Below, in pieces: positions 47,967 to 64,000 of a stretch of DNA of 64,000 bases. Source of the stretch: Corallococcus macrosporus (lineage in GTDB: Bacteria; Myxococcota; Myxococcia; Myxococcales; Myxococcaceae); the NCBI RefSeq assembly GCF_017302985.1, contig NZ_JAFIMU010000006.1:310001-374000 (forward strand), read 5' to 3'. The position numbers and the translations under genes were made by a program. The notes under the pieces were generated by a model. The model was not told where the DNA came from and made no database searches. It saw only the letters and a list, made by a program, of their open reading frames with translations. Positions within the stretch are counted from its first letter, which is position 1. Each line of letters begins with the position of its first letter.

Positions 47967-49121
47967 ATGGACTCCCATGAGACCCGGGACGCGATCCGCG
48001 CGTCCGTGCGTGCGCTGTGCAACCGCTTCCCCCCCAAGTACTGGCGGACCCTGGACGCGGAGCGTGAATACCCCCACGACTTCGTGAATGCCCTCACGGA
48101 GGCCGGCCTGCTGGCCGCACTGATTCCCACCGAGTACGGCGGCGCGGGGCTGGGGCTGCGCGAGGCGGCCGTCGTGCTGGGCGAAATCAACCACTTCGGC
48201 GGGAACGCGTCCGCCTGCCATGCGCAGATGTATGTGATGAACGTGCTGCTGCGTCACGGCTCCGTGGAGCAGAAGCAGCGGTACCTGCCGGAGATCGCGG
48301 CCGGGCGTCTGCGGCTCCAGGCCTTCGCGGTAACGGAGCCGAACTCCGGCTCGGACACCACCGCCATCGAGACGACGGCGGTGCGGCACGGCGACCGCTA
48401 CGTCGTGAACGGCCAGAAGATCTTCATCTCGCGCGTGCTCCAGTCCGACCTGATGCTCCTGCTCGCGCGGACGACGCCCCGGGCGGAGGTGCGCAAGAAG
48501 ACGGATGGGCTGAGCGTGTTCCTGCTCGACCTGCGCAAGACGCAGGGGCTGGAGGTCCGGCCCATCCGGACCATGCTCAACCACGCGACGAACGCGCTGT
48601 TCTTCGAGAACGTCGAAGTGCCCGCCGAGGGGCTGATTGGCGAGGAGGGCAAGGGCTTCTCGTACATCCTGGACGGCATGAACGCGGAGCGGGTGCTCGT
48701 CGCCTCGGAGGCCATCGGGGATGGCCGCTGGTTCATCGAGAAGGCCGTCGCGTATGCGCAGGAGCGCGTCGTGTTCGGCAAGCCCATTGGGGCAAACCAG
48801 GGCGTGCAGTTCCCCATCGCGAAGGCGCACACGGCGCTCACCGCCGCGTCGATGCTGACGGAGCAGGCGGCGACGCTCTTCGACAGCCATCAGTCCTGCG
48901 CGGCCGAAGCGAACATGGCGAAGTACCTGGCCGCGGAGGCCGCATGGGAGGCCGCCAACGCCTGCATGGACACCTACGGCGGCTATGGCTTCGCCGAGGA
49001 GTACGACGTGGAGCGCAAGTTCCGCGAGGTGCGCCTGTTCATCAACGCGCCCGTGAGCCGGAACATGGCCCTGTCGTACATCAGCCAGCACGTACTGGGG
49101 TTGCCCCGCTCGTTCACCTAG
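47967..49121 (+). CDS. Acyl-CoA dehydrogenase family protein
   Basis: A 384-aa flavoenzyme. N-terminal helices (ALIPTEYGGAGLGLREAAVVLGEI), the FAD/substrate segment FAVTEPNSGSDTTAIETTA, the strand YVVNGQKIFISRV, and the C-terminal domain NAERVLVASEAIGDGRWFIEKAVAYAQERVVFGKPIGANQGVQF with MDTYGGYGFAEEYDVERKFREVRL. The Glu in AEEYD is the likely catalytic base. It desaturates an acyl-CoA; which chain cannot be told. Monocistronic, followed by a gap with a hairpin before the aldo/keto reductase gene. Confidence 0.92.
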   Translation: MDSHETRDAIRASVRALCNRFPPKYWRTLDAEREYPHDFVNALTEAGLLAALIPTEYGGAGLGLREAAVVLGEINHFGGNASACHAQMYVMNVLLRHGSVEQKQRYLPEIAAGRLRLQAFAVTEPNSGSDTTAIETTAVRHGDRYVVNGQKIFISRVLQSDLMLLLARTTPRAEVRKKTDGLSVFLLDLRKTQGLEVRPIRTMLNHATNALFFENVEVPAEGLIGEEGKGFSYILDGMNAERVLVASEAIGDGRWFIEKAVAYAQERVVFGKPIGANQGVQFPIAKAHTALTAASMLTEQAATLFDSHQSCAAEANMAKYLAAEAAWEAANACMDTYGGYGFAEEYDVERKFREVRLFINAPVSRNMALSYISQHVLGLPRSFT

Positions 49122-52180: not shown

Positions 52181-53191
52181 TCAGGCGCTCCTGGCTGCGG
52201 GCGGCGCCTCCCGGCCCTCGCGGACGTGGACCACCACCTTCCCAATGGCTCGCCGCTCCGCGAGGGTGCGCAGTCCTTCGGCGGTCGCTTCCAGGGGGAG
52301 CCGGAGGGTGATGCGCGGGAGGATGCGGCCCTGCGCGTACCAGGCGAAGAGCTGATCCATGGTTTCGCGCAGCGCGGCCGGGTCGTGGTAGCGGAAGTAG
52401 CGCAGCGACGAGCCCAGCACCGCGCGGTGCTTCACGAGCAGCCGGTGGGCGGGGATGCTCGGAGCCTGTCCCGCGGCGAAGCCCACGAGGACGTAGCGGC
52501 CCCCCCAGCCCAGCGTCGAGAGCGCCGGGTCGAAGAGCGGTCCGCCGACCGGATCCACGCAGACGTTCACGCCCGCTGAACCCGACTCAGAGAGGACCTG
52601 CTCCTTCCAGGCCGCGTCAGCGGAGCAGATGACCCGGTCCGCTCCGGCTTCGCGCGCGATGGCGAGCTTGTCCGGGGTGCTCGCGACCGCGATGACCGTG
52701 GCGCCCAGCGCCTTGCCCAGCTGCACCGCCGCGAGCCCCACGCCTCCGCTCGCTCCGAGCACGAGGAGCACCTCCGAAGGCTTCAGGTGGGCGACGCGGA
52801 TCAGTGCCAGCGCGGTGCTCACGTAGGCGCTGGTCAACGCCGCGGCGACGTCGAAGGAGACTCCCGCCGGCAGCAGGAACGTCTCCTGGGCGGAGGCCAC
52901 GGCCTGCTCGGCGTAGCCTCCGTGCCAGAGGATGGCCACGACCCGGTCCCCGGTCTTGAAGCCCGAGCCCTCCGGGGCGCTAGCGATGGTCCCCGCGGCC
53001 TCCAGCCCCGGAACGAAGGGCAGCTCGGGCCGGGTCTGATAGGTCCCGCCGATCATGAGGAGGTCGGCGAAGTTCACGCTGCACGCATGCACGTCGATGC
53101 TCACCTCGCCGGGCTTCGGAACAGGCTCGGGGACATTCGTGAGGGTGAGTTGCTCGGGTCCGCCCCACCTCCCACAGACCATTGCTCGCAC
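52181..53191 (-). CDS. MDR-family NADPH:quinone oxidoreductase/enoyl reductase
   Basis: A 336-aa medium-chain reductase without the zinc ligands of alcohol dehydrogenases. N-terminal MRAMVCGRWGGPEQLTLTNVPEPVPKPGEV, the NADPH-binding LVLGASGGVGLAAVQLGKALGA, and FVPGLEAAGTI are present. Quinone oxidoreductases and enoyl reductases of secondary metabolism share this layout. It is the last gene of the minus-strand operon after the AKR gene (1 bp between stop and GTG start), so reduction of a product of the cluster is inferred, for instance an enoyl intermediate. Converges on the HTH regulator. Confidence 0.9.
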   Translation of the reverse strand: MRAMVCGRWGGPEQLTLTNVPEPVPKPGEVSIDVHACSVNFADLLMIGGTYQTRPELPFVPGLEAAGTIASAPEGSGFKTGDRVVAILWHGGYAEQAVASAQETFLLPAGVSFDVAAALTSAYVSTALALIRVAHLKPSEVLLVLGASGGVGLAAVQLGKALGATVIAVASTPDKLAIAREAGADRVICSADAAWKEQVLSESGSAGVNVCVDPVGGPLFDPALSTLGWGGRYVLVGFAAGQAPSIPAHRLLVKHRAVLGSSLRYFRYHDPAALRETMDQLFAWYAQGRILPRITLRLPLEATAEGLRTLAERRAIGKVVVHVREGREAPPAARSA

Positions 53192-53192
53192 G

Positions 53193-54158
53193 TCATCGCT
53201 CCTGGGTGGAAGTGAGGCTTCGCCAGAGGTCTTCGTTCGCGGGCAGGCTCAGTGCCTCCGACACCAACTGCTCGAGCTGCTCCGGGCTGCGCGCGCCAAC
53301 GAGGATCGACGTCACGAAGGGGCAGTGCACCAGCCACCAGGTGGCGACGCCGGAGGGTGACAGCGCGTGGGCGGAGGCCAGGGCCTTCAAGTGTTCGACC
53401 CGGGCCGCGTTCTCCGGGGTCCAGGCCTTCGCGTAGAGGTCCCGGCGCTGTCCGATGCGCGTGCCCTCAGGAATCTCCCCCGCCATGGCGTACCTGCCGC
53501 TCAGCAGGCCGCCCGCCAGCGGTGAATAGGGCGTGTACTGAAGCCCCAGTTTCGCGCAGGCCTCCAGCACACCGTTCCGCGCGTCGTCCTGTTCGAGCAG
53601 GTTGAAGCGGTTCTGGACCCAGCCGAAGCCCACCGGGCCTCCAGCGCGTGGAGCTGCACAGCGCCAGAGGTCGCCTGCGGCGACGTTCGACAAGCCGAAA
53701 CGGCGGACCTTCCCTGCCCTCACGAGTGACTGGAAGGTTTCGAGGACATCGTCCCAAGGCGTCGCGGGATCGGGCACGTGCGACAGGTAGAAGTCGAGCG
53801 TGTCGATGCGAAGACGCGCGAGCGAGCGGTCCACCTCCGCGAACACATGCTTCCGTCCGAGCCCACCGCGAAGGCCCACCTTGGACGAGATGAGCACCCG
53901 GTCCCGCATCGCGGCGCCGCGCGAGGCCAACCAGGCGCCGATGATGGCTTCGCTGGCACCGTCCGCGTAGGTGCCTGCCGTGTCGATGATGTTGATCCCC
54001 AGCGCCACAGCGCGATCCAGGAGCGCATGGGCTTCGGCTTCGGTCTCTCCCTGGCCGAGCAGCTTCCGGGAGCTGCCGATGCCGCCGAAGTTCGCTGCCC
54101 CCAGGGCGAAGACCGACACGTTGATGCCACCAAGCTTGCGGTAGATCACGTCCGCCAC
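53193..54158 (-). CDS. Aldo/keto reductase of the biosynthetic cluster
   Basis: A 321-aa AKR. Tetrad residues in INIIDTAGTYADGASE (Asp, Tyr), VLISSKVGLRGG (Lys) and DFYLSHVPDP (His). NADP loop SILVGARSPEQLEQLV. The GTG at 54158 gives VADVIYRKLGGINVSVFALG, the normal N-terminus; the longer frame to 54194 adds a Pro/Gly leader. The start lies inside the last codons of the hotdog gene (13-nt overlap), which indicates translational coupling. A keto group on a polyketide-like chain is a plausible substrate, by context. Confidence 0.9.
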   Translation of the reverse strand: MADVIYRKLGGINVSVFALGAANFGGIGSSRKLLGQGETEAEAHALLDRAVALGINIIDTAGTYADGASEAIIGAWLASRGAAMRDRVLISSKVGLRGGLGRKHVFAEVDRSLARLRIDTLDFYLSHVPDPATPWDDVLETFQSLVRAGKVRRFGLSNVAAGDLWRCAAPRAGGPVGFGWVQNRFNLLEQDDARNGVLEACAKLGLQYTPYSPLAGGLLSGRYAMAGEIPEGTRIGQRRDLYAKAWTPENAARVEHLKALASAHALSPSGVATWWLVHCPFVTSILVGARSPEQLEQLVSEALSLPANEDLWRSLTSTQER

Positions 54159-54661
54159 GCCTCCGGGAACGGCAACGCAAGGTCGCCCTCCCATGCACCC
54201 GAGGAACCGATCAACGTGAAGTGCGCCGTGTAGGTCGCTGCGGGCTCGCCCTGGTCGATGAAGACCTGCGACGTGGCCGTGAGCCGCACCTTGCCTCCCT
54301 GGCGAAGCGTGTCGGCCTCCAGCGGGGGCAACGCGTCACACCTAGCCCGGTAGTCGCACGCGATGGGCCGGTGGATGGCGAACTCACAGCGACGCAGCAG
54401 GATCTGCACGGCGATTCGCTCTGCCCAAGCCGCTCGCACGAGCAGCAGCCAGGGAGCGAGCCCCGCCGAAGTGAACACACCCGGGCCGAACGCCGTCCCC
54501 CGGTGGTTCAAGGAAGGGCCCAGCGGCGCCACAAGCACGATGCGGCCGGGCTCGAACTCCTCGAAGCGGATCCCCAGGAACTTCGTCATGGGAATGCGTT
54601 CATGAAGATCCCTCGCCAGATGCGCGAGCACGTCCTCTCGGTCATCGGGTTGGATGTTCAT
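54146..54661 (-). CDS. Hotdog-fold thioesterase (YiiD C-terminal domain type)
   Basis: A 171-aa protein with the layout of the YiiD_C/PaaI-like hotdog fold: IPMTKFLGIRFEEFEPGRIVLVAPLGPSLNHRGTAFGPGVFTSAGLAPWLLLVRAAWAER, where NHxGTxFGxxxx is the conserved active-site segment, then strands KVRLTATSQVFIDQGEPAATYTAHFTLI. Stand-alone proteins of this class hydrolyse acyl thioesters. The ATG overlaps the stop of the ketosynthase gene (ATGA) and its end overlaps the AKR start. Likely releases or edits the acyl chain made by the KS protein. Confidence 0.85.
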   Translation of the reverse strand: MNIQPDDREDVLAHLARDLHERIPMTKFLGIRFEEFEPGRIVLVAPLGPSLNHRGTAFGPGVFTSAGLAPWLLLVRAAWAERIAVQILLRRCEFAIHRPIACDYRARCDALPPLEADTLRQGGKVRLTATSQVFIDQGEPAATYTAHFTLIGSSGAWEGDLALPFPEAWRT

Positions 54662-57435
54662 GGCGCCGCCACCTGAAGGTCGGGGCCGGCCTCGATCACG
54701 ACGTGGTAGTGGTTGCCTCCGCTTCCCGCCGCGTTGACTGCCGCGAAGCGCGCATCCTTCAGACCCTGCGACTCCATGATGACGCGCAGGTTGTCGGCTG
54801 CTCCTACGAGCGGTGCCGTCACGCCCACTGTCGCGGGGACCTCCTTCGCGGCCAATGTGAACAGTGCCTTCATCAGGCTCGCGGCTCCCGCTGCCGCTCC
54901 GGTGTGACCGATGTTCGGCATGACCGAGCCGATGGGGAGTGCCCGGGCTCTCGCGGTGGCGAGTGTCCTTCCCAGGGCGGCCAACTCTCCCTGGTCGCTG
55001 GCGGGATGGCCACTGCCGAAGCACTCCACGAAGGCGAGCGCGTCCGCGGGCACGTCACACCGTGACCATGCTCGCCGGATGGCCAGGCTCATCGCGGGTT
55101 CAGAGACGAGGCCGTGGTCCTGGGGCGTTCCGAACGCGCTCCCGATCGCTCGAATGATCCCGAGCACCGGCTCGCCACGCTCCTGTGCGTCCGACAGGCG
55201 CCGCAGCAGGCACACCGTGGCGCCTTCTCCGGGCAGATAGCCGTCAGAGGACGCGTCGAACGCGGTTGGCGTCTCCCGGCGGGACAGCAGCCCCAGCGTG
55301 CCTTCGTCCGCCATGCGCGTCACTCCGAGCCGCATGTCCGCCGTCGCCCAGAAGACCGCGTCGGCTTCTCTCGATGCCAGCCGGCCGCAGGCGACCTCCA
55401 GTCCTCCCATGGAGGCCGCCGCGCCTCCCGCCTCGATGGCGCAGGTCGGTCCGGTCAGATCGAAGGCCCGGGCGATCCTCGCCGCCATGAAGCTGGGCGA
55501 CAGGTTGAAGAGGCTTCCGGCCCACAGCTCCGGCAGGTCTCCAGACAGGCGCTTCACCGCCGCTCGCACCGTGCGGGCCACGCCCTTGGGGTCCTTGCCC
55601 GTCTCGCGCAGCACTCGCTGGAGGTGCTCTTCAATTTCCGGCAGTCGCGCCGCGGCGACCTGATGCAGGCCGTACTCGGTGCAGTGCTCCGCGGAGACAA
55701 CCACCGGGATGTTGCTTCCCCGTTCGATGGCGACCTTCGAGGCCGCGCTCCGCGCCAGGTCCACCAGCAGGTAGTGGAGCGGATCATGCCGGACGATGTC
55801 GGCGGGCCGCTCGTCGTACTGGCTGGCGCTTCCGGTGAACCGGTGTGCCTCCAGGTCCATCGGCGCTCCCAGCCCGAACGGCAACCTCCGGAACGCCCGG
55901 CGGCCCTGGAGCAGGTTCTTCCACAGCGTCCCGAGGTCCGGGGCGTCCGCGAACGCTCCCGCCATGCCCACGATGGCGATGGGCTCGTCCGTCCTCGCGG
56001 GGCACTTTCGCGCGCCTCGCAGCAGCGCCTGGGCCCGCGCGGGTGACGGCCGGTCCTCCACCACCGCGTGGTAGTTCTGGCCTCCGCTCGCGATGGCGCT
56101 GACGCCTCCGATGCGCGGCTGCTCGCCCGCCGGCCAGGACCGGGCCGTCTTCTCGACCTCGATGAGACCTCCGGGTTCGAGCAGGCTCCTCGGCTTGTCC
56201 CCGTGCACCGGTCCCGGAATGCCCCCGGACTCGAACATGGCGAGCAGCGCGATCAGGTTCGCCAGCCCCGACGCCTCCTTCGCATGTCCCAGGTTCCCCT
56301 TGATGGACATGACGGGCACCGGCGACCCGGGTTGGGCCGCTTCACCGTGCGCCTTCAGGGCCCGGTCGAAGACCTTCGCCTCCACCGCGTCACCCGCGCG
56401 TGTCCCCGTGCCATGCGCGATGATCACGCCCAGCTCCCGGGGCGCCACGCCTGCCTGCTCGAGCGCTCGCCGCACCGCCAGCTCGTGGCCGCGCGGGTTC
56501 GGGACCAGCATGTAGCCTTCGGCCGCGCCGTCGTTCGCTCCGCCGACGCCACGGATCACCCCGTGGATGGGAAGCCGCTCCTGGGTGGCCCGCTCCAGGC
56601 TCGTGAGCACCAGCAGCACCACGCCGTCGGAGATGACCGTCCCGTTGCCCTTCTGCGCGAACGGGAAGCAGCCCTCGGACGACAGGAGGCGTGAGTTCGA
56701 ATAGAGGACCTGGTTGACCGTGTCGACGTAGGACAGCGCGCCCGCGATGGCCCACGGGGCGCCCTTCGCCAGCTCCCGCGCCGCCAGTTCAATGGCGGCC
56801 AGACCGCCGGTGCAGTTCCCGTCCACCAGCATCGCCTTCTCCGTGGTCCCCAATGCCTCCGCGATGGCGCTTGCCAGGCGGTGCGTGGCGCGCTCCCTCG
56901 GGTCCTCCACGAAGTCCGGCCCGAACGACTCCCGGAGCGACTGGCGCACCTTCCGGGTGAGGTCCGTCAGCTCCTGATGGGAGAACTCGTTCGGATGCGC
57001 GCCGTGCACCAGGTACGGCTGGAGCTGCCCCGCCACCGCCAGCACCGCGGCGTCATAGAGCCCGTGCCCCCCCCCGCGTGAGTGCGCGAGGAAGACCGGA
57101 ACGGGCTGCCCGCCCAGCGCGCCGGGAGCCAGTCCCGCCGAGGCCAGGGCCCGGTGCGCAGTCTCCACCACCCACCCGTGTGGAACCTTCGCATCCGGCA
57201 GCTCGCGAGCGCCCACGACTCCACCCAGCAGCGTGGACGTCCGCGCCGCGCCCACGGCCGCAGAGGGGTCCAGATACAGGGCCCGGGAAATGCGCTCCTC
57301 GGGCCATTGGCCATACGTGGTCTTTCCCCCGTGCAGCACTTCCGCCAGTTCATCGAGTGTGCGAGCGCCCGGCAAGGCAAACGCAAAGCCAGAGATCGCA
57401 ACGGGCGCGATCCCATCCAGATGTCCCTTCAGCAT
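54658..57435 (-). CDS. Two-domain ketosynthase: active KS fused to a degenerate KS (KS-CLF-like)
   Basis: A 925-aa protein of two tandem beta-ketoacyl synthase domains with no AT, ACP or KR domain. KS1 (about 1-470): VDGNCTGG with Cys208, AHGTGTRAGD with His341, and KGNLGHAKEASG with His384, so Cys-His-His is complete. KS2 (about 480-925): the active-site position in GPTCAIEAGGAAAS is Gly671, the first His in ECFGSG is Phe806, and only His844 in NIGHT remains. A working KS next to a dead KS copy is the plan of KS-CLF units in type II PKS and in PUFA synthase PfaC. Chain extension with a carrier protein encoded elsewhere is inferred. Start ATG 57435; no strong ribosome site. Confidence 0.88.
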   Translation of the reverse strand: MLKGHLDGIAPVAISGFAFALPGARTLDELAEVLHGGKTTYGQWPEERISRALYLDPSAAVGAARTSTLLGGVVGARELPDAKVPHGWVVETAHRALASAGLAPGALGGQPVPVFLAHSRGGGHGLYDAAVLAVAGQLQPYLVHGAHPNEFSHQELTDLTRKVRQSLRESFGPDFVEDPRERATHRLASAIAEALGTTEKAMLVDGNCTGGLAAIELAARELAKGAPWAIAGALSYVDTVNQVLYSNSRLLSSEGCFPFAQKGNGTVISDGVVLLVLTSLERATQERLPIHGVIRGVGGANDGAAEGYMLVPNPRGHELAVRRALEQAGVAPRELGVIIAHGTGTRAGDAVEAKVFDRALKAHGEAAQPGSPVPVMSIKGNLGHAKEASGLANLIALLAMFESGGIPGPVHGDKPRSLLEPGGLIEVEKTARSWPAGEQPRIGGVSAIASGGQNYHAVVEDRPSPARAQALLRGARKCPARTDEPIAIVGMAGAFADAPDLGTLWKNLLQGRRAFRRLPFGLGAPMDLEAHRFTGSASQYDERPADIVRHDPLHYLLVDLARSAASKVAIERGSNIPVVVSAEHCTEYGLHQVAAARLPEIEEHLQRVLRETGKDPKGVARTVRAAVKRLSGDLPELWAGSLFNLSPSFMAARIARAFDLTGPTCAIEAGGAAASMGGLEVACGRLASREADAVFWATADMRLGVTRMADEGTLGLLSRRETPTAFDASSDGYLPGEGATVCLLRRLSDAQERGEPVLGIIRAIGSAFGTPQDHGLVSEPAMSLAIRRAWSRCDVPADALAFVECFGSGHPASDQGELAALGRTLATARARALPIGSVMPNIGHTGAAAGAASLMKALFTLAAKEVPATVGVTAPLVGAADNLRVIMESQGLKDARFAAVNAAGSGGNHYHVVIEAGPDLQVAAP

Positions 57436-57776: not shown

Positions 57777-58691
57777 ATGAAAAGACTCGATCCGAGCCGT
57801 ATCAAGGATTCGTTCATCAACGTCTCCACCTTCCCGGCGGAGCTGGGTGAAGGCCGCTCGGCTGCTCCCGACGCCGCGCTGCTCGACGCCGTGGTGGAGG
57901 CCGTCGAGAAGAAGAACGGGTTCGCGGTGGTGTACGGCGTGAACAAGCTGCTCGCGGCGCGCGGGCTGGACCTCCATACGGAGTCCGGCGCCGCGCTGGC
58001 CCGGGACTACCTGGAGGGCATCTTCCGGGCCATCGCGCCGCGCTTCGACCTGAAGCGCTACAGCCCCACGCCCGTCGCCTACGACCGCGTCGCCAAGATG
58101 GACGTGGACGGCTTCAACAAGAACCGCAACTTCACGCCCAACAGCGACCACACGGAGAGCCGCGAGTTCGTCACCACGAAGTGCGTCCACTTCGACTCGG
58201 CGACGCCGTTCATCGCGAACCTCTACGGCCCCAACCAGAACATCAGCGGCGGCATGCCGATGATCTGCGACACGCGCCGGTTCTGCCAGGACAAGGGCCT
58301 GGATCCCCGAGAGCTCATCGAGAACATCCCCAACAACTACAACGTCGCGGTGAAGGCGGAGTTCTCCGAGGAGATCCTTCGCGACTACTCGTTCGCGCTG
58401 AAGCTCGACCTGGAGAACGACATCGTGATGATCGTCCTCCACAACGAGGTGGTGGGCGGACTCGCCCATGCCGCCACCCAGCCGTCCCTCACCGACGCGA
58501 GCAAGGCCGCGAAGCGCCCCATCCGCCACGTCGAGTACCAGGTCGCGGGCTCCGACGACCTCAAGCGCTGGTACGACTACTACGGCCTCTCCCTGGAGAA
58601 GGCGACGAACCACAAGGAGGACGCCAACATCACCCGCTTCGTCCGCGGCGAGCTCGCCCCCTACCCGAACATCATCGAGGTGCGGGCATGA
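57777..58691 (+). CDS. Possible Fe(II)/2OG-type oxygenase, first gene of right arm
   Basis: A 304-aa cytoplasmic protein not confidently assigned to a family. SDHTESREF (His125, Glu127) looks like the HxE metal motif of the clavaminate synthase/AsnO/VioC group of 2-oxoglutarate oxygenases, followed by GPNQNISGGMPMICD, a Gly-Gly strand region like theirs. LHNEVVGGLAH (His222, His231) and RPIRHVEYQV (His251) offer possible third ligands and an Arg for 2OG, in a plausible order. These oxygenases hydroxylate amino acids. The ATG lies 71 bp after the promoter -10, and the stop overlaps the next start (ATGA). Confidence 0.72.
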   Translation: MKRLDPSRIKDSFINVSTFPAELGEGRSAAPDAALLDAVVEAVEKKNGFAVVYGVNKLLAARGLDLHTESGAALARDYLEGIFRAIAPRFDLKRYSPTPVAYDRVAKMDVDGFNKNRNFTPNSDHTESREFVTTKCVHFDSATPFIANLYGPNQNISGGMPMICDTRRFCQDKGLDPRELIENIPNNYNVAVKAEFSEEILRDYSFALKLDLENDIVMIVLHNEVVGGLAHAATQPSLTDASKAAKRPIRHVEYQVAGSDDLKRWYDYYGLSLEKATNHKEDANITRFVRGELAPYPNIIEVRA

Positions 58692-59599
58692 CCACGCGAC
58701 AGCACGCGGAGCGCAACGCGGCGGAGATGAAGGACCTGCTCGCGTACCTGGACGCCCGGCCCTGGCCGGACGGCTACGAGGCGGCGCGGGTCCACTACGA
58801 TTCGCTCGGGCTGCCCATCGCCAGGGACATCGGCGTGGAGCCCGTCAACGTGAACGGCGTCCGCGCCCAGTGGCTCACGCCGCCGGAGTGCGAGCAGGAC
58901 CGCGCCCTGCTCTTCCTGCACGGCGGCGGGTTCGTCTTCGGCTCGCTGGTGAGCCACGGCCACATGGCCGCGGAGATGGCGCGGCAGGCGCGCTGCCGGG
59001 TGCTCCAGCTCGACTACCGCCGGGCCCCGGAGCACCCCTACCCGGCCGCGCTGGACGACGCGACCACCGCGTACCGCTGGCTGCTGGAGCGCGGGTTCGC
59101 GCCCGGCCGCATCTCCATCGCGGGTGACTCGGCGGGCGGCGGCCTGGTGGTCTCCATGCAGGTCAACGCCCGGGCCAAGGGGCTGCCGCTCGCGGGCGCC
59201 CTGGTGTGCATCTCGTCGTGGTTCAACCTGGGCATCCAGGGGGAGAGCTACCAGTCGCGTGAGAAGGCAGACGCGCTGGTGCAGCGCAAGGTGGTGGAGG
59301 AGGTCGCGCGGCACTACCTCAACGGGCAGGACCCGCGGCAGCCCACCATCTCTCCCATCCACGCGGACCTCACCGGCCTGCCGCCCCTGCTCATCCAGGT
59401 GGGCGAGCGGGAGCTGCTCTTCAGCGACTCGCAGGCGATGGCGAAGAAGGCCCAGGCCCAGGGCGTGGACGTCACGTTCGAGGAGTGGCCCGACATGGTC
59501 CACGTCTGGCACCTGCACTTCAACCGACTGTCCAGCGGCCGTGAGGCCCTGCAGCGCATTGGCCAGTTCGTGATGGACAAGACAGGAGCGCGGAAGTGA
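58688..59599 (+). CDS. HSL-family alpha/beta hydrolase
   Basis: A 303-aa esterase/amidase of the hormone-sensitive-lipase group. HGGGFVFGS at 78-86 forms the oxyanion hole, GDSAGGG at 146-152 holds the nucleophile Ser148, and MVHVWHLHF near the C-terminus has the catalytic His. The acid in the VGERELLFSDS region appears as Glu or the following Asp, so it should be checked. It hydrolyses esters or amides of a small substrate, or removes a protecting acyl group. Coupled to the flanking genes: ATGA overlap upstream and GTGA overlap downstream. Confidence 0.88.
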   Translation: MTTRQHAERNAAEMKDLLAYLDARPWPDGYEAARVHYDSLGLPIARDIGVEPVNVNGVRAQWLTPPECEQDRALLFLHGGGFVFGSLVSHGHMAAEMARQARCRVLQLDYRRAPEHPYPAALDDATTAYRWLLERGFAPGRISIAGDSAGGGLVVSMQVNARAKGLPLAGALVCISSWFNLGIQGESYQSREKADALVQRKVVEEVARHYLNGQDPRQPTISPIHADLTGLPPLLIQVGERELLFSDSQAMAKKAQAQGVDVTFEEWPDMVHVWHLHFNRLSSGREALQRIGQFVMDKTGARK

Positions 59600-60825
59600 C
59601 GACGCCCAGCGACGCGGTGATGGGTCCCCACCTGCACCGCAACAACCAGAAGATGATCCCCGCCAGCGAGAGCGCCTGGGCCGTGGCCCGCGACTCGCAC
59701 ATGCTCAACATCCGCGTGGAGGCCGTGCGCGGCCAGAACCACTTTCGCGAGGTGGACACCGGGCACGAGTTCGCCAACCTGTGCTCCTGCTCCTACCTGG
59801 GGCTCAACAGCCACCCGGACGTCATCCAGGGCGGCATCGACGCGCTCAGGAACGCGGGCATCACCGGCCTGTCCATGGCGGAGTTCCGCATCCGGCTGGG
59901 CCTGATGGAGCAACTGGAGGAGCAGCTGGCGGACCTCTTCGGTGGGCCCGTGCTGCCCGCCGTCACGTCCAGCGCGCTCACGGCCGCCATCCTCCCGGTG
60001 CTGGGGTCCGGCCACCTGACGGACAGCGGGCCGCTGGCGATGGTGTTCGACAAGTTCGCGCACTTCTCCATGGCGTTCGTGAAGCCCATCGTCGCCGACG
60101 AGACGCTGGTGCTGAACGCTCCGCACAACGACATGAACTACCTGGAGGACGTCTGCCGGAAGTACCCGCGCGTGGCGTACGTCTGCGACGGCGTCTACTC
60201 CACCGGCGGCGCGACGGACCTCCCCGCGCTGCTCACGCTCCAGGAGAAGTACGGCCTCTTCCTCTACATCGACGACTCGCACTCGCTCTCCACGCAGGGC
60301 AGGAACGGCGAGGGCTACATCCGCTCGCGGCTGCGCGAGATGAACGACCGGACAGTCATCATCGCCTCCATCGCCAAGGCGTTCGGCAGCACGGGCGGCA
60401 TCGCGATGTTCGGGTCGCGCAAGCACTACGACTTCCTCTACCGGACGGGCCCCATGGGCTGGTCCCAGAGCCTGCGGACGGCGGCCATCGGCACCTCCAT
60501 GGGGAGCATCAAGGTGCACCGCAGCCCGGAGCTGGCGAAGCGGCAGGAACAGCTGCGCCGGAACATCGCGCTGTTCGATGAGCACATCCAGACCGCGCAG
60601 CGCGGCGACGGGCTGCACATCAAGGTCGTGGAGGTGGGCGAACAGGAAAAGGCCGTGAAGCTGTCGCGCGAGCTCTACAAGCGCGGCTTCTACACCTCCG
60701 CGGTCTTCTTCCCCATCGTGCCGGTGGGCAAGGCGGGCATCCGGCTCATGCTGCGCGGCGACCTGCCCACGGAGATGGTGCAGGCGTTCATCGGCCACCT
60801 GAAGGAAGTCCTCCCGACGCTGTAG
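59596..60825 (+). CDS. Alpha-oxoamine synthase (PLP-dependent, AONS/SPT-like)
   Basis: A 409-aa enzyme of fold-type I that joins an acyl-CoA or acyl-ACP to an amino acid with loss of CO2. SCSYLGLNSHPDV near 64-76, GLSMAEFRIR, DGVYSTGG at 198-205, IDDSHS at 225-230 with Asp226 and His229, and SIAKAFGSTGG with the PLP Lys261 fit the family. The family normally has a Gly-rich acyl loop near residue 85-100. It also resembles CqsA-type and prodiginine enzymes. GTG start overlapping the hydrolase stop. Inside the cluster it is the logical bridge between the KS-made acyl chain and an amino acid. Confidence 0.87.
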   Translation: MTTPSDAVMGPHLHRNNQKMIPASESAWAVARDSHMLNIRVEAVRGQNHFREVDTGHEFANLCSCSYLGLNSHPDVIQGGIDALRNAGITGLSMAEFRIRLGLMEQLEEQLADLFGGPVLPAVTSSALTAAILPVLGSGHLTDSGPLAMVFDKFAHFSMAFVKPIVADETLVLNAPHNDMNYLEDVCRKYPRVAYVCDGVYSTGGATDLPALLTLQEKYGLFLYIDDSHSLSTQGRNGEGYIRSRLREMNDRTVIIASIAKAFGSTGGIAMFGSRKHYDFLYRTGPMGWSQSLRTAAIGTSMGSIKVHRSPELAKRQEQLRRNIALFDEHIQTAQRGDGLHIKVVEVGEQEKAVKLSRELYKRGFYTSAVFFPIVPVGKAGIRLMLRGDLPTEMVQAFIGHLKEVLPTL

Positions 60826-60840: not shown

Positions 60841-61767
60841 ATGGCTGCCTTCCTGCCCCACGACGTCGTCTCCGCGCACGGGAACCTGCAACGGCTCGTG
60901 CGCGAGCTGGAGGCGGCGCTCACGGAGGGCCTGCATGAGCGCGTGCAGGTCCCGCTGCGCGTCGCCGTCCCCTCCGCCACCCGGCACGCCGCGTTCGTGT
61001 CGATGCCGGCCGTGTCGGAGCACCTGGGCCTCTACATCAACAAGGTCGCGACCCTGTTCGAGCGGGCCGCGACGGAGCCGCTGCCCACCATGAACGGCGT
61101 GGTGGCGGCGTTCTCCACGCGCACGGGGGAGCTGCTCGCGCTGCTGGATGGCGCGGCGGTGACGGAGCTCAAGTGCGCCGCCGTGTCCGCGCTCGTCACC
61201 GACCTCTGCGCGCGCACGGATGCGCGGACGCTGGCGGTGGCGGGGGCTGGCGCGCAGGCCCGTCAGCAGGTGGCGGCGGTCCGCGCGGTCCGCCCCATCC
61301 AGGAGGTGCGGGTCTGGGCGCGCAACACGGCCCGGCGCGGCGCGTTCGCGGCGGAGCTGCGCGCATCGCTGGGCGTGGCGGTGCACGTCGTCGCCTGCGC
61401 CTCGCTGGATGAAGCCATCCGGGGCGCGGACGTGATTGGCACCGCCACGTCATCGAAGAAACCGCTGGGGAGCTTCGAGGGCCTTACCCCCAGCGTGCAC
61501 ATCAACTGCATGGGTGGACACACCGTGGAGACGCGGGAGGTGCCGCTCGAACTGCTGCGCTCATCGACGGTCATCGTCGAGGACCTGGCCACGGCGCTCG
61601 CGGAGGCCGGGCCGGTCCACGAGAGCGCCATCACCCTGGGGCAGCTCGTGCGCAGGGACAGCGGCCCCCTGCGTGCGGGCCGCACCGTCTTCAGCTCCAC
61701 GGGCCATGCGTTCCTCGACGTCCTCACGGTCGCGCACGTGCTGCGCGAGCTGGAACTGATTCATTGA
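60841..61767 (+). CDS. Ornithine cyclodeaminase/mu-crystallin family protein
   Basis: A 308-aa NAD(P)-dependent enzyme. The mu-crystallin pattern is visible: an N-terminal substrate domain with LYINKVATLFERAATEPLPTMNG and LLALLDGAAVTELKCAAVSALVTDLCARTD, and the Rossmann segment LAVAGAGAQARQQVAAVRAV. VIGTATSSKKP is the usual end of the fold. Members deaminate ornithine to proline or reduce imines (for example in N-alkyl amino acid or diaminopropionate synthesis). Here an imine reductase acting after the oxoamine synthase is possible. GGAGGAG lies 9 nt ahead of the ATG. Confidence 0.88.
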   Translation: MAAFLPHDVVSAHGNLQRLVRELEAALTEGLHERVQVPLRVAVPSATRHAAFVSMPAVSEHLGLYINKVATLFERAATEPLPTMNGVVAAFSTRTGELLALLDGAAVTELKCAAVSALVTDLCARTDARTLAVAGAGAQARQQVAAVRAVRPIQEVRVWARNTARRGAFAAELRASLGVAVHVVACASLDEAIRGADVIGTATSSKKPLGSFEGLTPSVHINCMGGHTVETREVPLELLRSSTVIVEDLATALAEAGPVHESAITLGQLVRRDSGPLRAGRTVFSSTGHAFLDVLTVAHVLRELELIH

Positions 61768-61781
61768 ACCTGGAGGAGCAC

Positions 61782-62753
61782 ATGATGAAGGAGTTGCCCC
61801 GAATCGATTTGACGTCCGCGACGCCAGGGTCCGAAGCCGAGCGCCGGGCGGCGTTCGAGATCGACCGGGCCTGCAAGCAGGTGGGCTTCTTCACCCTGAG
61901 CGGCCACGGCATCGCGCCGGCCGTCTTCGAAGACGTCTATGCCCTGTCACGGGCCTTCTTCCGCCAGCCGCTGGAGGCGAAGAACCGCTGCCGGTTGCAG
62001 TCCGGCTTCACCATGGCCGCGGACGACTACACGCCCTACGGCTACAGCGGCATGCTGGAGGAGAACGCCTTCGCGTACATGGGCCGCAAGGGGTTGCCCA
62101 GCGACTACGTGGAGAAGTTCAGCGTGGGCCGGCTCATCGAGGACGACAGTGCGAGCCTGCCGTTCAGCGCGGACGCGGAAGGACAGAGGCTGCGCTCGGC
62201 GCTCAAGGCGTACTTCCGCGAGTGCGAGGCGCTGACGTCCCGGCTCACGGAGCTGTTCAGCATCGCGCTGGACCTGCCCCGGGACTTCTTCGCGAAGAAG
62301 ACGTCCGCGTCCAACGACTCGCTCCGCTCCCTGCTCTATCCCCAGCTCAGCCCGGAGCTCGTCAACGATCAGGGCATGGGCGAGCACACGGACGGGACGC
62401 TGCTGACGGTCCTGGCGCAGACAGGCCCCGGCATCCAGGTGAAGGAGCGCGGGGGCACGTGGATCACCCCCACGCTGGAGCGGCGCGACCACCTCATCGT
62501 CAACATCGGAGACCTGATGGCCCGGTGGGCCAACGACGAATACGTCTCCACCCCGCACCGGGTCGTGCTGCACGGTGGCGAGCGCCAGTCCCTGGCGTTC
62601 TTCAAGCTCGCCAACGACGACGCGCTCATCGAGTGCTTCCCCAAGTTCTGCAAGGACACGCCCGCGAAGTACGAGCCCGTCGTCTACAAGGCCTTCTCCC
62701 TCCAGAAGATGAACGCGCTGTTCGGTGTCGGCGGCGACGCCGGACGCTCCTGA
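61782..62753 (+). CDS. Isopenicillin-N-synthase-like Fe(II) dioxygenase
   Basis: A 323-aa protein of the 2OG/Fe(II) superfamily, DIOX_N plus 2OG-FeII_Oxy domains. N-terminal DIOX_N segment: RACKQVGFFTLSGHGIAP. Metal ligands: MGEHTDGTLLTVL with His202 and Asp204, and TPHRV with His259; GERQSLAFF with Arg268 and Ser270 is the 2OG-binding RxS motif. All four are intact. These enzymes hydroxylate, desaturate or cyclise. GGAGGAG at 61772-61778 sets the start at 61782 or 61785; a TTG at 61764 is also open. Directly between the OCD-like gene and the ATP-grasp-like gene. Confidence 0.9.
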   Translation: MMKELPRIDLTSATPGSEAERRAAFEIDRACKQVGFFTLSGHGIAPAVFEDVYALSRAFFRQPLEAKNRCRLQSGFTMAADDYTPYGYSGMLEENAFAYMGRKGLPSDYVEKFSVGRLIEDDSASLPFSADAEGQRLRSALKAYFRECEALTSRLTELFSIALDLPRDFFAKKTSASNDSLRSLLYPQLSPELVNDQGMGEHTDGTLLTVLAQTGPGIQVKERGGTWITPTLERRDHLIVNIGDLMARWANDEYVSTPHRVVLHGGERQSLAFFKLANDDALIECFPKFCKDTPAKYEPVVYKAFSLQKMNALFGVGGDAGRS

Positions 62754-62761
62754 GGCCACCC

Positions 62762-64000
62762 ATGATCGGTGAATTCAACGAAGCGTTCCTCGCCGCCCTG
62801 GAAGAGGGGTGGACGCCCGCGCGTGACGCCACGGCGCAGGCGAGCACGATCGCGGCGATCCACGACCTGGACTCGCCCATGTACGAGAAGAGCCAGTTCG
62901 CGCACCCGCTCCTCTTCAGCCAGGCGGAGTTCGTGGAGCTGAGCCAGGCGTGCCGCGCCCTGCTCTCCGCGCAGCTGAAGCTGATCCACCACCTCATCGG
63001 CACGCGTTCGCGGGAGGGGCTGCTCGACCTGCTGCGGATGCCCCGGCACCTCGCGCGCTTCATCCACTGGGACAACCTTCGCCACGGCGACGCGACGATT
63101 GGCCGCATGGACATCGTGCCCACGCGGCAGGGGTACTTCTTCTGCGAGTTCAACATCTTCCCCGGCGTGGGCGGCGGTGAAGCCTACGAAGGCTCGCGCG
63201 CGGCCACCGAGGCGCTGGGTTTTCCCCGCGCCGGGTTGATGGGCAGTCCCCTGCGGGACCTCGCGCTGCTGTACGCGGAGGAGTGCCGGAAGCGGGAGCT
63301 GCGCCGGGTGGTGATCCTCGATTCGCGGGGGCACTCGGGCCTGGGCTACCCGCGCCAGGAGTACCTGAAGCGTTACCTCGAGGAGCTGAACCCGGGCGTG
63401 CCGGTCCACATCCTCGACGAGGTGAGCTACCCGGAGGCCTGGCTGAAGCGGGATGAGGCGGAGCGCACGCTCATCCACCGCATGTTCACCTACGAGGAGG
63501 TCACGGATCACTTCGTGTTCCTGGAGAAGCTCTGGGCGAGCGGCGCGGTGCTCACCAACGGCTTCGAACCGGAGCTGCGGATGAGCAAGCGATTCCTCGC
63601 GCTGCTGTGCGAGCCGGGCCATCAGGCGCTGTTCAGCGAGGACGAGGTGTCCGCCATCCGGAAGTACCTTCCGCCTGCCTTCTCGCTGTCGGAGGAGAAC
63701 CTGGCGGGCGCGCTGCGCGACAAGGCCGGGCTCGTCTTCAAGATCGACGACAGCAGCTCCTACGGCGGCAGCGGTGTGCTGATGGGGACGGACTGGTCCC
63801 CAGAGGAGCTGGAGCGGAAGCTGCGCGAGCCGGGCGTCGAGCGGTGGATCTGCCAGCGCGTCGTGGAGGCGGAGACCGTCCGGCTGCGCGCGGGCGGTGA
63901 CTCAGCCCCGGAGGAGTACCGGCTGGTGCTGGGCTTCTACTCCTACGGCGGCAGGACGAACGGCTTCCTGGTGCGCGGCAGCCGCACTTCCAAGGTGGTG
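62762..64000 (+). CDS. Possible circularly permuted ATP-grasp ligase, partial
   Basis: 413 residues are visible and the gene runs off the right edge. No family is certain. FFCEFNIFPGVGGGEAYEGSR (about 129-149) looks like the metal-binding strand of ATP-grasp enzymes, and VFKIDDSSSYGGSGVLMG (about 324-341) like a flexible Gly-rich ATP loop; ERWICQRVVEAETV (about 360-373) and RLVLGFYSYGGRTNGFLVRGSRTSK follow. These resemble circularly permuted ATP-grasp proteins such as glutathionylspermidine-synthase-like ligases, which make amide bonds. In the cluster it would attach an amino acid or amine to the acyl product. The start ATG at 62762 is 9 bp after the dioxygenase stop. Confidence 0.72.
   Translation, partial: MIGEFNEAFLAALEEGWTPARDATAQASTIAAIHDLDSPMYEKSQFAHPLLFSQAEFVELSQACRALLSAQLKLIHHLIGTRSREGLLDLLRMPRHLARFIHWDNLRHGDATIGRMDIVPTRQGYFFCEFNIFPGVGGGEAYEGSRAATEALGFPRAGLMGSPLRDLALLYAEECRKRELRRVVILDSRGHSGLGYPRQEYLKRYLEELNPGVPVHILDEVSYPEAWLKRDEAERTLIHRMFTYEEVTDHFVFLEKLWASGAVLTNGFEPELRMSKRFLALLCEPGHQALFSEDEVSAIRKYLPPAFSLSEENLAGALRDKAGLVFKIDDSSSYGGSGVLMGTDWSPEELERKLREPGVERWICQRVVEAETVRLRAGGDSAPEEYRLVLGFYSYGGRTNGFLVRGSRTSKVV

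Follow-up and report, generated by a model that had tools for sequence, protein, structure and literature searches.

Pairs of an active and a catalytically dead ketosynthase (KS) are known from several condensing systems. In type II KS-CLF systems such as those of actinorhodin and ishigamide, the two are separate proteins and an ACP lies adjacent. PfaC carries an active KS followed by a dead KS in one chain, together with AT, DH and DH domains, and the KS-CLF didomain of Moritella marina is available as structure 6RIW (PMC9138089). In the cispentacin pathway, AmcF and AmcG form a small dedicated KS system of separate proteins with an ACP of its own, AmcB, for which a single elongation and cyclization are reported (PMC10698177). 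Here, we describe a protein from Corallococcus macrosporus that shares features with each of these systems. Like PfaC, it consists of an active KS and then a dead KS on one chain, but the AT/DH/DH domains are lacking by Pfam analysis. It pairs an active with a dead KS as the type II enzymes do, although in a single chain and with no ACP found in its gene island, and it is a small dedicated system like AmcF-AmcG, but again in one chain. In the open literature, we recognized no paper on this protein by title or abstract, which is no proof of absence, and a description of the 12-gene cluster around it was not found in the literature searched.

Domain structure and catalytic residues of KS-KS

The window, the 64,000-nucleotide stretch of DNA analyzed here, contains on its minus strand an uninterrupted frame (54658..57435) for a 925-aa protein, which we call KS-KS. 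Pfam recognized two ketoacyl-synthase units and no other domain type on the chain, neither an AT nor an ACP domain among them. The first half (KS1, about residues 9-468) retains the active set Cys208/His341/Lys379/His384, while the second half (KS2, about residues 481-923) is dead. When KS2 was aligned with 36 other KS domains (37 in all), its nucleophile column fell on Gly671/Ala672, spanning two residues since the elbow (IEAGGAAAS) has an insertion of one residue. The first-His column fell on Phe806 and the active-site Lys column on Met839, and His844 alone remains. The original prediction of a fusion between an active and a dead, CLF-like KS had named C208, H341 and H384 in the first half and G671, F806 and H844 in the second, all exactly as found here; the minus strand and the loss of the Lys in KS2 were not part of it.

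Residues and alignment agree on this fusion in all ten Corallococcus proteins, the window protein included. The Cys/His/Lys/His set of KS1 is invariant in 10/10; position 671 of KS2 is Gly or Ala in every one, and position 806 is Phe in nine and Ser in one (L021). His844 and Cys665 of KS2 are likewise invariant (10/10), as would be expected if KS2 were catalytic in another manner, acting as a decarboxylase or acyl transferase through His844 or the nearby Cys so that both halves act. KSQ-type domains decarboxylate without the Cys, which is a point in favor of such a role. However, the Cys, the first His and the Lys are all lost from KS2, no Gln replaces the Cys, and Cys665 lies six residues ahead of the nucleophile column, and we therefore regard a catalytic KS2 as highly improbable. 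The dead half also differs in detail from known CLFs: the Streptomyces CLF has Gln at the nucleophile site where KS2 has Gly/Ala, and the four catalytic positions read Gly/Ala-Phe-Met-His in KS-KS against Glu-Ala-Lys-His in the Persicobacter PfaC.

In KS1, Ser450 is invariant in all ten Corallococcus proteins. Residue 450 occupies the position of the gating Phe of FabF, where KS1 of the three tabulated Corallococcus proteins has Ser and F, I, L, V or M is found in the other intact KSs of the same table. Because Ser450 is unlike the residue in the other intact KSs compared, KS1 may differ from an ordinary elongating KS, and as far as this residue is a guide it may act on an unusual substrate.

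Relatives and phylogeny

We searched 195 Myxococcota genomes, among them that of the window, for homologues of KS-KS at an E-value of 1e-55 or better; 17 had a match, namely 10 Corallococcus genomes at 76-100% identity and seven others at 29-34%. A KS followed by a dead KS without further domains occurred solely in the 10 Corallococcus genomes. The closest co-linear relatives are two synthases that begin with a KS-KS region, one in a 2888-aa frame (L095:383-9049; 32% identity over the didomain) and one in a 2753-aa frame (L096:3516-11777). Both halves of these didomains have the full catalytic residues, whereas KS-KS is a 925-aa protein with a dead KS2. For L095, the one covered by the Pfam table, AT, ACP, KR and DH follow downstream of the KS-KS region. 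Tandem KS proteins with the reverse order, dead half first and active half second, were found at L094:8265-12458, L037:11068-16446 and L038:7912-12132, and as free-standing proteins of 943 aa (L092:9324-12155) and 1059 aa (L093:8040-11219); at the latter two loci AT, ACP, KR and DH are on other proteins. The original prediction had called the free-standing format uncommon. This holds for the active-then-dead order without extra domains (10/195 genomes), but not for free-standing tandem KSs as such, since L092 and L093 also encode them. No match to KS-KS was obtained in viral contigs, and six rows of 98% cover in a plasmid search all came from a single stretch of 525 aa that had been matched as two pieces.

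We constructed a tree of 37 KS domains, from which one domain (the first KS of a 1154-aa frame in L092) had been dropped as too short. KS1 of the window grouped with KS1 of L095/L096 (support 99/99) and KS2 with KS2 of L095/L096 (support 95/97), and both clades lay apart from FabF, type II KS and CLF. Placing KS2 with the type II CLF, represented by one Streptomyces reference, gave a p-AU of 3.6e-6, and a type II CLF origin of KS2 was rejected. That KS2 arose from KS1 by a recent duplication within the protein was also rejected (p-AU 0.014 for KS1 with KS2). Against a single PfaC reference from Persicobacter, on long branches, p-AU was 0.019 for KS1 with the PfaC KS, a weak result as one of four tests, and 0.318 for KS2 with the PfaC CLF. 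Of the groupings that the original prediction had suggested for a phylogeny, the type II origin was thus excluded and that of KS2 with the PfaC CLF was not rejected. Because of the long branches and the one PfaC reference, the tree does not prove that KS2 lost its residues independently of the PfaC CLF.

Selection and predicted structure

Across 12 pairs, the Nei-Gojobori method gave dN/dS values of 0.06-0.22 for KS1 and 0.12-0.19 for KS2. Both halves are under purifying selection; in close pairs KS2 evolves somewhat faster than KS1, still far below neutral. KS2 is therefore kept and is not a decaying remnant, which its dN/dS rules out.

The whole KS-KS chain was modeled with AlphaFold2 from an input alignment of 18 sequences (the 10 Corallococcus proteins and 8 myxobacterial relatives), giving a predicted pseudo-dimer with a pLDDT of 88.8 and a pTM of 0.92. 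The top Foldseek match of the model was 6riw (E 5.3e-55), with a TM of 0.77 whichever length is used and an alignment of 981 columns, while the second match had an E-value of 2e-45 and a TM of 0.40, and all 49 lower matches listed, the second included, had a TM of ≤0.41 by query length. The KS1 half alone superposed on numerous solved KSs, among them the actinorhodin and ishigamide KS-CLFs (1tqy and 6kxf). The VIA rows mostly span the KS1 half only, and the absence of other families there is uninformative. A superposition of the full-length model, which had been proposed with the original prediction, thus points to the PfaC KS-CLF didomain as the best fit to the predicted whole chain.

This predicted fold, the order of the halves, which in the Persicobacter PfaC (L098) is likewise active then dead (CHKH then EAKH), and the grouping of KS2 with the PfaC CLF, which the tree test did not reject, would all suit a displaced PfaC-type KS-CLF of a PUFA (secondary lipid) synthase that makes a long acyl chain for lipid. 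Identity to the Persicobacter PfaC is, however, 25% over the best stretch, and FabA-type dehydratase domains, present in that protein, are absent from KS-KS by Pfam, as are AT and ACP domains; the original prediction had correctly set KS-KS apart from PfaC on the dehydratases. Furthermore, the genome of the window has no PfaA match that exceeds the TIGR02813 cut-off, KS1 tends to separate from the PfaC KS in the weak test above, and the neighboring genes encode an oxoamine synthase, an ornithine cyclodeaminase family protein and an amino acid ligase rather than lipid genes. Membership in a PUFA synthase was rejected on the missing DH domains and PfaA, and we consider a displaced PfaC-type enzyme quite improbable. 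KS-KS is a real, conserved variation on the KS-CLF didomain.

A conserved 12-gene island

KS-KS belongs to an island of 12 genes. At its left end, an acyl-CoA dehydrogenase (ACAD) family protein is encoded on the plus strand (47967..49121; PF00441, PF02771, PF02770). On the minus strand, KS-KS is followed by a YiiD_C putative thioesterase, a hotdog protein by family (54146..54661; PF09500, 5.8e-19), an aldo/keto reductase (AKR) that is a candidate trans-acting ketoreductase (53193..54194; PF00248, 5.2e-56; in 10/10 islands), and a PIG3-like MDR oxidoreductase, a candidate enoyl reductase (52181..53191; PF00107, 6.3e-27), which scored 236 bits against TIGR02824, below the cut-off of 296.8. The hotdog neighbor of the original prediction does adjoin KS-KS; it is, however, of a putative thioesterase and not a dehydratase family, and is one of 12 conserved genes. 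In the window its start overlaps the KS-KS stop codon, and in most other genomes there is a gap between the two genes. This gap varies up to about 400 bases (L020:12776-13178, with matching gaps in L022, L027 and L030), and in L020 and L030 it is built of repeated short units.

The remaining genes run divergently on the plus strand. The first encodes an orphan protein of 304 aa without a family (57777..58691), found solely in the 10 island genomes (10/195 Myxococcota); it gave no match in a PDB profile search or in plasmids, and its fold was poorly predicted by an AlphaFold-type model (pLDDT 41). Its HFD motif (residues 138-140) is reminiscent of non-haem iron enzymes. Then follow an alpha/beta hydrolase of the hormone-sensitive-lipase type (58688..59599; PF07859, 1.1e-58), a PLP-dependent alpha-oxoamine synthase (59596..60825; PRK07505, 477 bits, cut-off 342), an ornithine cyclodeaminase/mu-crystallin (OCD) family protein that is a candidate imine reductase (60841..61767; PF02423, 5.8e-45), and a Fe(II)/2OG oxygenase family protein (61764..62753; PF14226, PF03171), the nearest solved structure of which is an ethylene/succinate-forming enzyme (9ovh, 8e-32). 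The next protein, starting at 62750 on the plus strand and continuing past the window's end at 64000 to about 64117, matched no family, although we suspect that it too is an ATP-grasp. An ATP-grasp of the L-amino-acid-ligase type comes next beyond the window (64121-65302 in joined coordinates).

All 12 genes are present in each of 10 genomes, the window's and nine others (in G009 over two adjoining loci), and the island is whole in 10/16 Corallococcus genomes, ACAD occurring in the same 10 as KS-KS. In the other six, a TPR gene and cinA mark the left border of the site and tmk its right border, with no island genes between them. One genome lacking the island (G013) retains a broken ATP-grasp copy (L064:2275-3448), which is a sign of loss. 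The island has a G+C content of 68.4% and its flanks have 66.5% and 70.7%, so that recent import is not indicated by composition. Between ACAD and MDR, two further genes for AKRs and one for an MmyB-like regulator occur in the window genome and in G007 but in none of the other eight island genomes, and are therefore not core. The two divergent operons, although linked in all island genomes, could serve two functions.

The oxoamine synthase and the search for a carrier

The best matches of the oxoamine synthase among solved structures were 8xha (3.2e-84) and three like entries (3e-84 to 5e-84), against 1.6e-22 at best for the classical solved enzymes; it is thus closest to enzymes of the Alb29 type. 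Matches at 1e-60 or better were found in 44/195 Myxococcota genomes. We compared seven of these loci outside the island: an MDR lay near the oxoamine synthase in 7/7 and a KS in 5/7. Two of the five KS loci (L127 and L129) were annotated, and in both AmcC, AmcF and AmcG scored over the NCBIfam cut-offs, with AmcH over its cut-off in L127. These clusters (L127:8465-17965 and L129:8399-16955) are of the cispentacin type. Each has an oxoamine synthase related to that of the window at 54-56%, together with a RipB/MaoC-like hydratase, a RipC/HpcH-like lyase and an MDR. At L130:9265-12917, an oxoamine synthase, a RipC-like lyase, a RipB-like hydratase and an MDR stand in a row; the three frames after the MDR had no NCBIfam match at 1e-20, and no Amc gene was seen there.

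These neighborhoods suggest that this oxoamine synthase family repeatedly accompanies a small KS system, and that the island may be a second such pairing with KS-KS in the place of AmcF-AmcG. KS-KS could then carry out one C2 extension and ring closure, as reported for AmcF-AmcG, the KS with cyclization factor of cispentacin biosynthesis, with KS2 shaping a ring-closing pocket. The shared oxoamine synthase family and the reported chemistry speak for this. On the other side, KS-KS scored 181 bits against AmcF (NF058662), where the curated cut-off is 325, KS2 is a full-size KS while the AmcG model is much shorter at 157 positions, and AmcC, AmcG and AmcH were unmatched among the ten window proteins scanned. 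The AmcF score and the size of KS2 rule out that KS-KS is an AmcF-AmcG fusion, and an AmcF-AmcG-like ring closure appears unlikely to us.

We also searched for a carrier. No ACP was found in the island: of 203 candidate PP-binding places in the genome, 150 were scored and listed, and all of these 150 lie outside it. The eight KS-KS/hotdog gaps of other genomes, read by eye in six frames, contained repeated short peptides and stops and no recognizable ACP, and an ACP within the gap was rejected. That no ACP was found in the island is consistent with a borrowed carrier, such as the housekeeping ACP of the iterative system that the original prediction had put forward as a possibility, but is no demonstration of it.

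Proposed role of KS-KS

We consider it likely, with high confidence, that KS-KS is a single-chain condensing enzyme of the KS-CLF type. KS1, through Cys208, His341 and His384, would perform a decarboxylative Claisen condensation, and KS2, without nucleophile, first His and Lys, would have a structural part, completing the pseudo-dimer and forming walls of the acyl pocket, like the chain-length factor of PfaC. A housekeeping ACP or CoA would be supplied from outside the island as the carrier, and AKR, MDR, hotdog and ACAD would act as separate beta-carbon and release enzymes. The Alb29-like oxoamine synthase would condense the short acyl thioester with an amino acid, and its product would then be reduced and oxidized before the ATP-grasp joins it to a further amino acid. 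The chemistry, the carrier, the number of rounds and the product are all what we infer. To this explanation as a whole, in which a single-chain KS-CLF works in the 12-gene cluster with an outside carrier and the oxoamine synthase receives the acyl thioester, we assign a probability of about 0.6. The conserved cluster probably makes a small molecule, and the pathway given for it is an informed guess at roughly even odds. A broader scenario is put forward tentatively and seems rather doubtful: the CLF-like dead half would have arisen anew in Myxococcota from a didomain with both halves active that was cut free of its megasynthase, leaving a one-chain KS-CLF that uses borrowed carriers and feeds an oxoamine synthase; the pathway, so far undescribed, would lead to a product derived from an amino ketone and ligated to an amino acid.

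The role of the dead KS half is difficult to establish where the halves are separate subunits or parts of a megasynthase. If the single-chain KS-CLF reading is true, a free-standing 925-aa enzyme with small separate partners would be a convenient test bed for that role. The cluster also offers a definite starting point for finding a Corallococcus metabolite, for which the strains with and without the island form a natural set.
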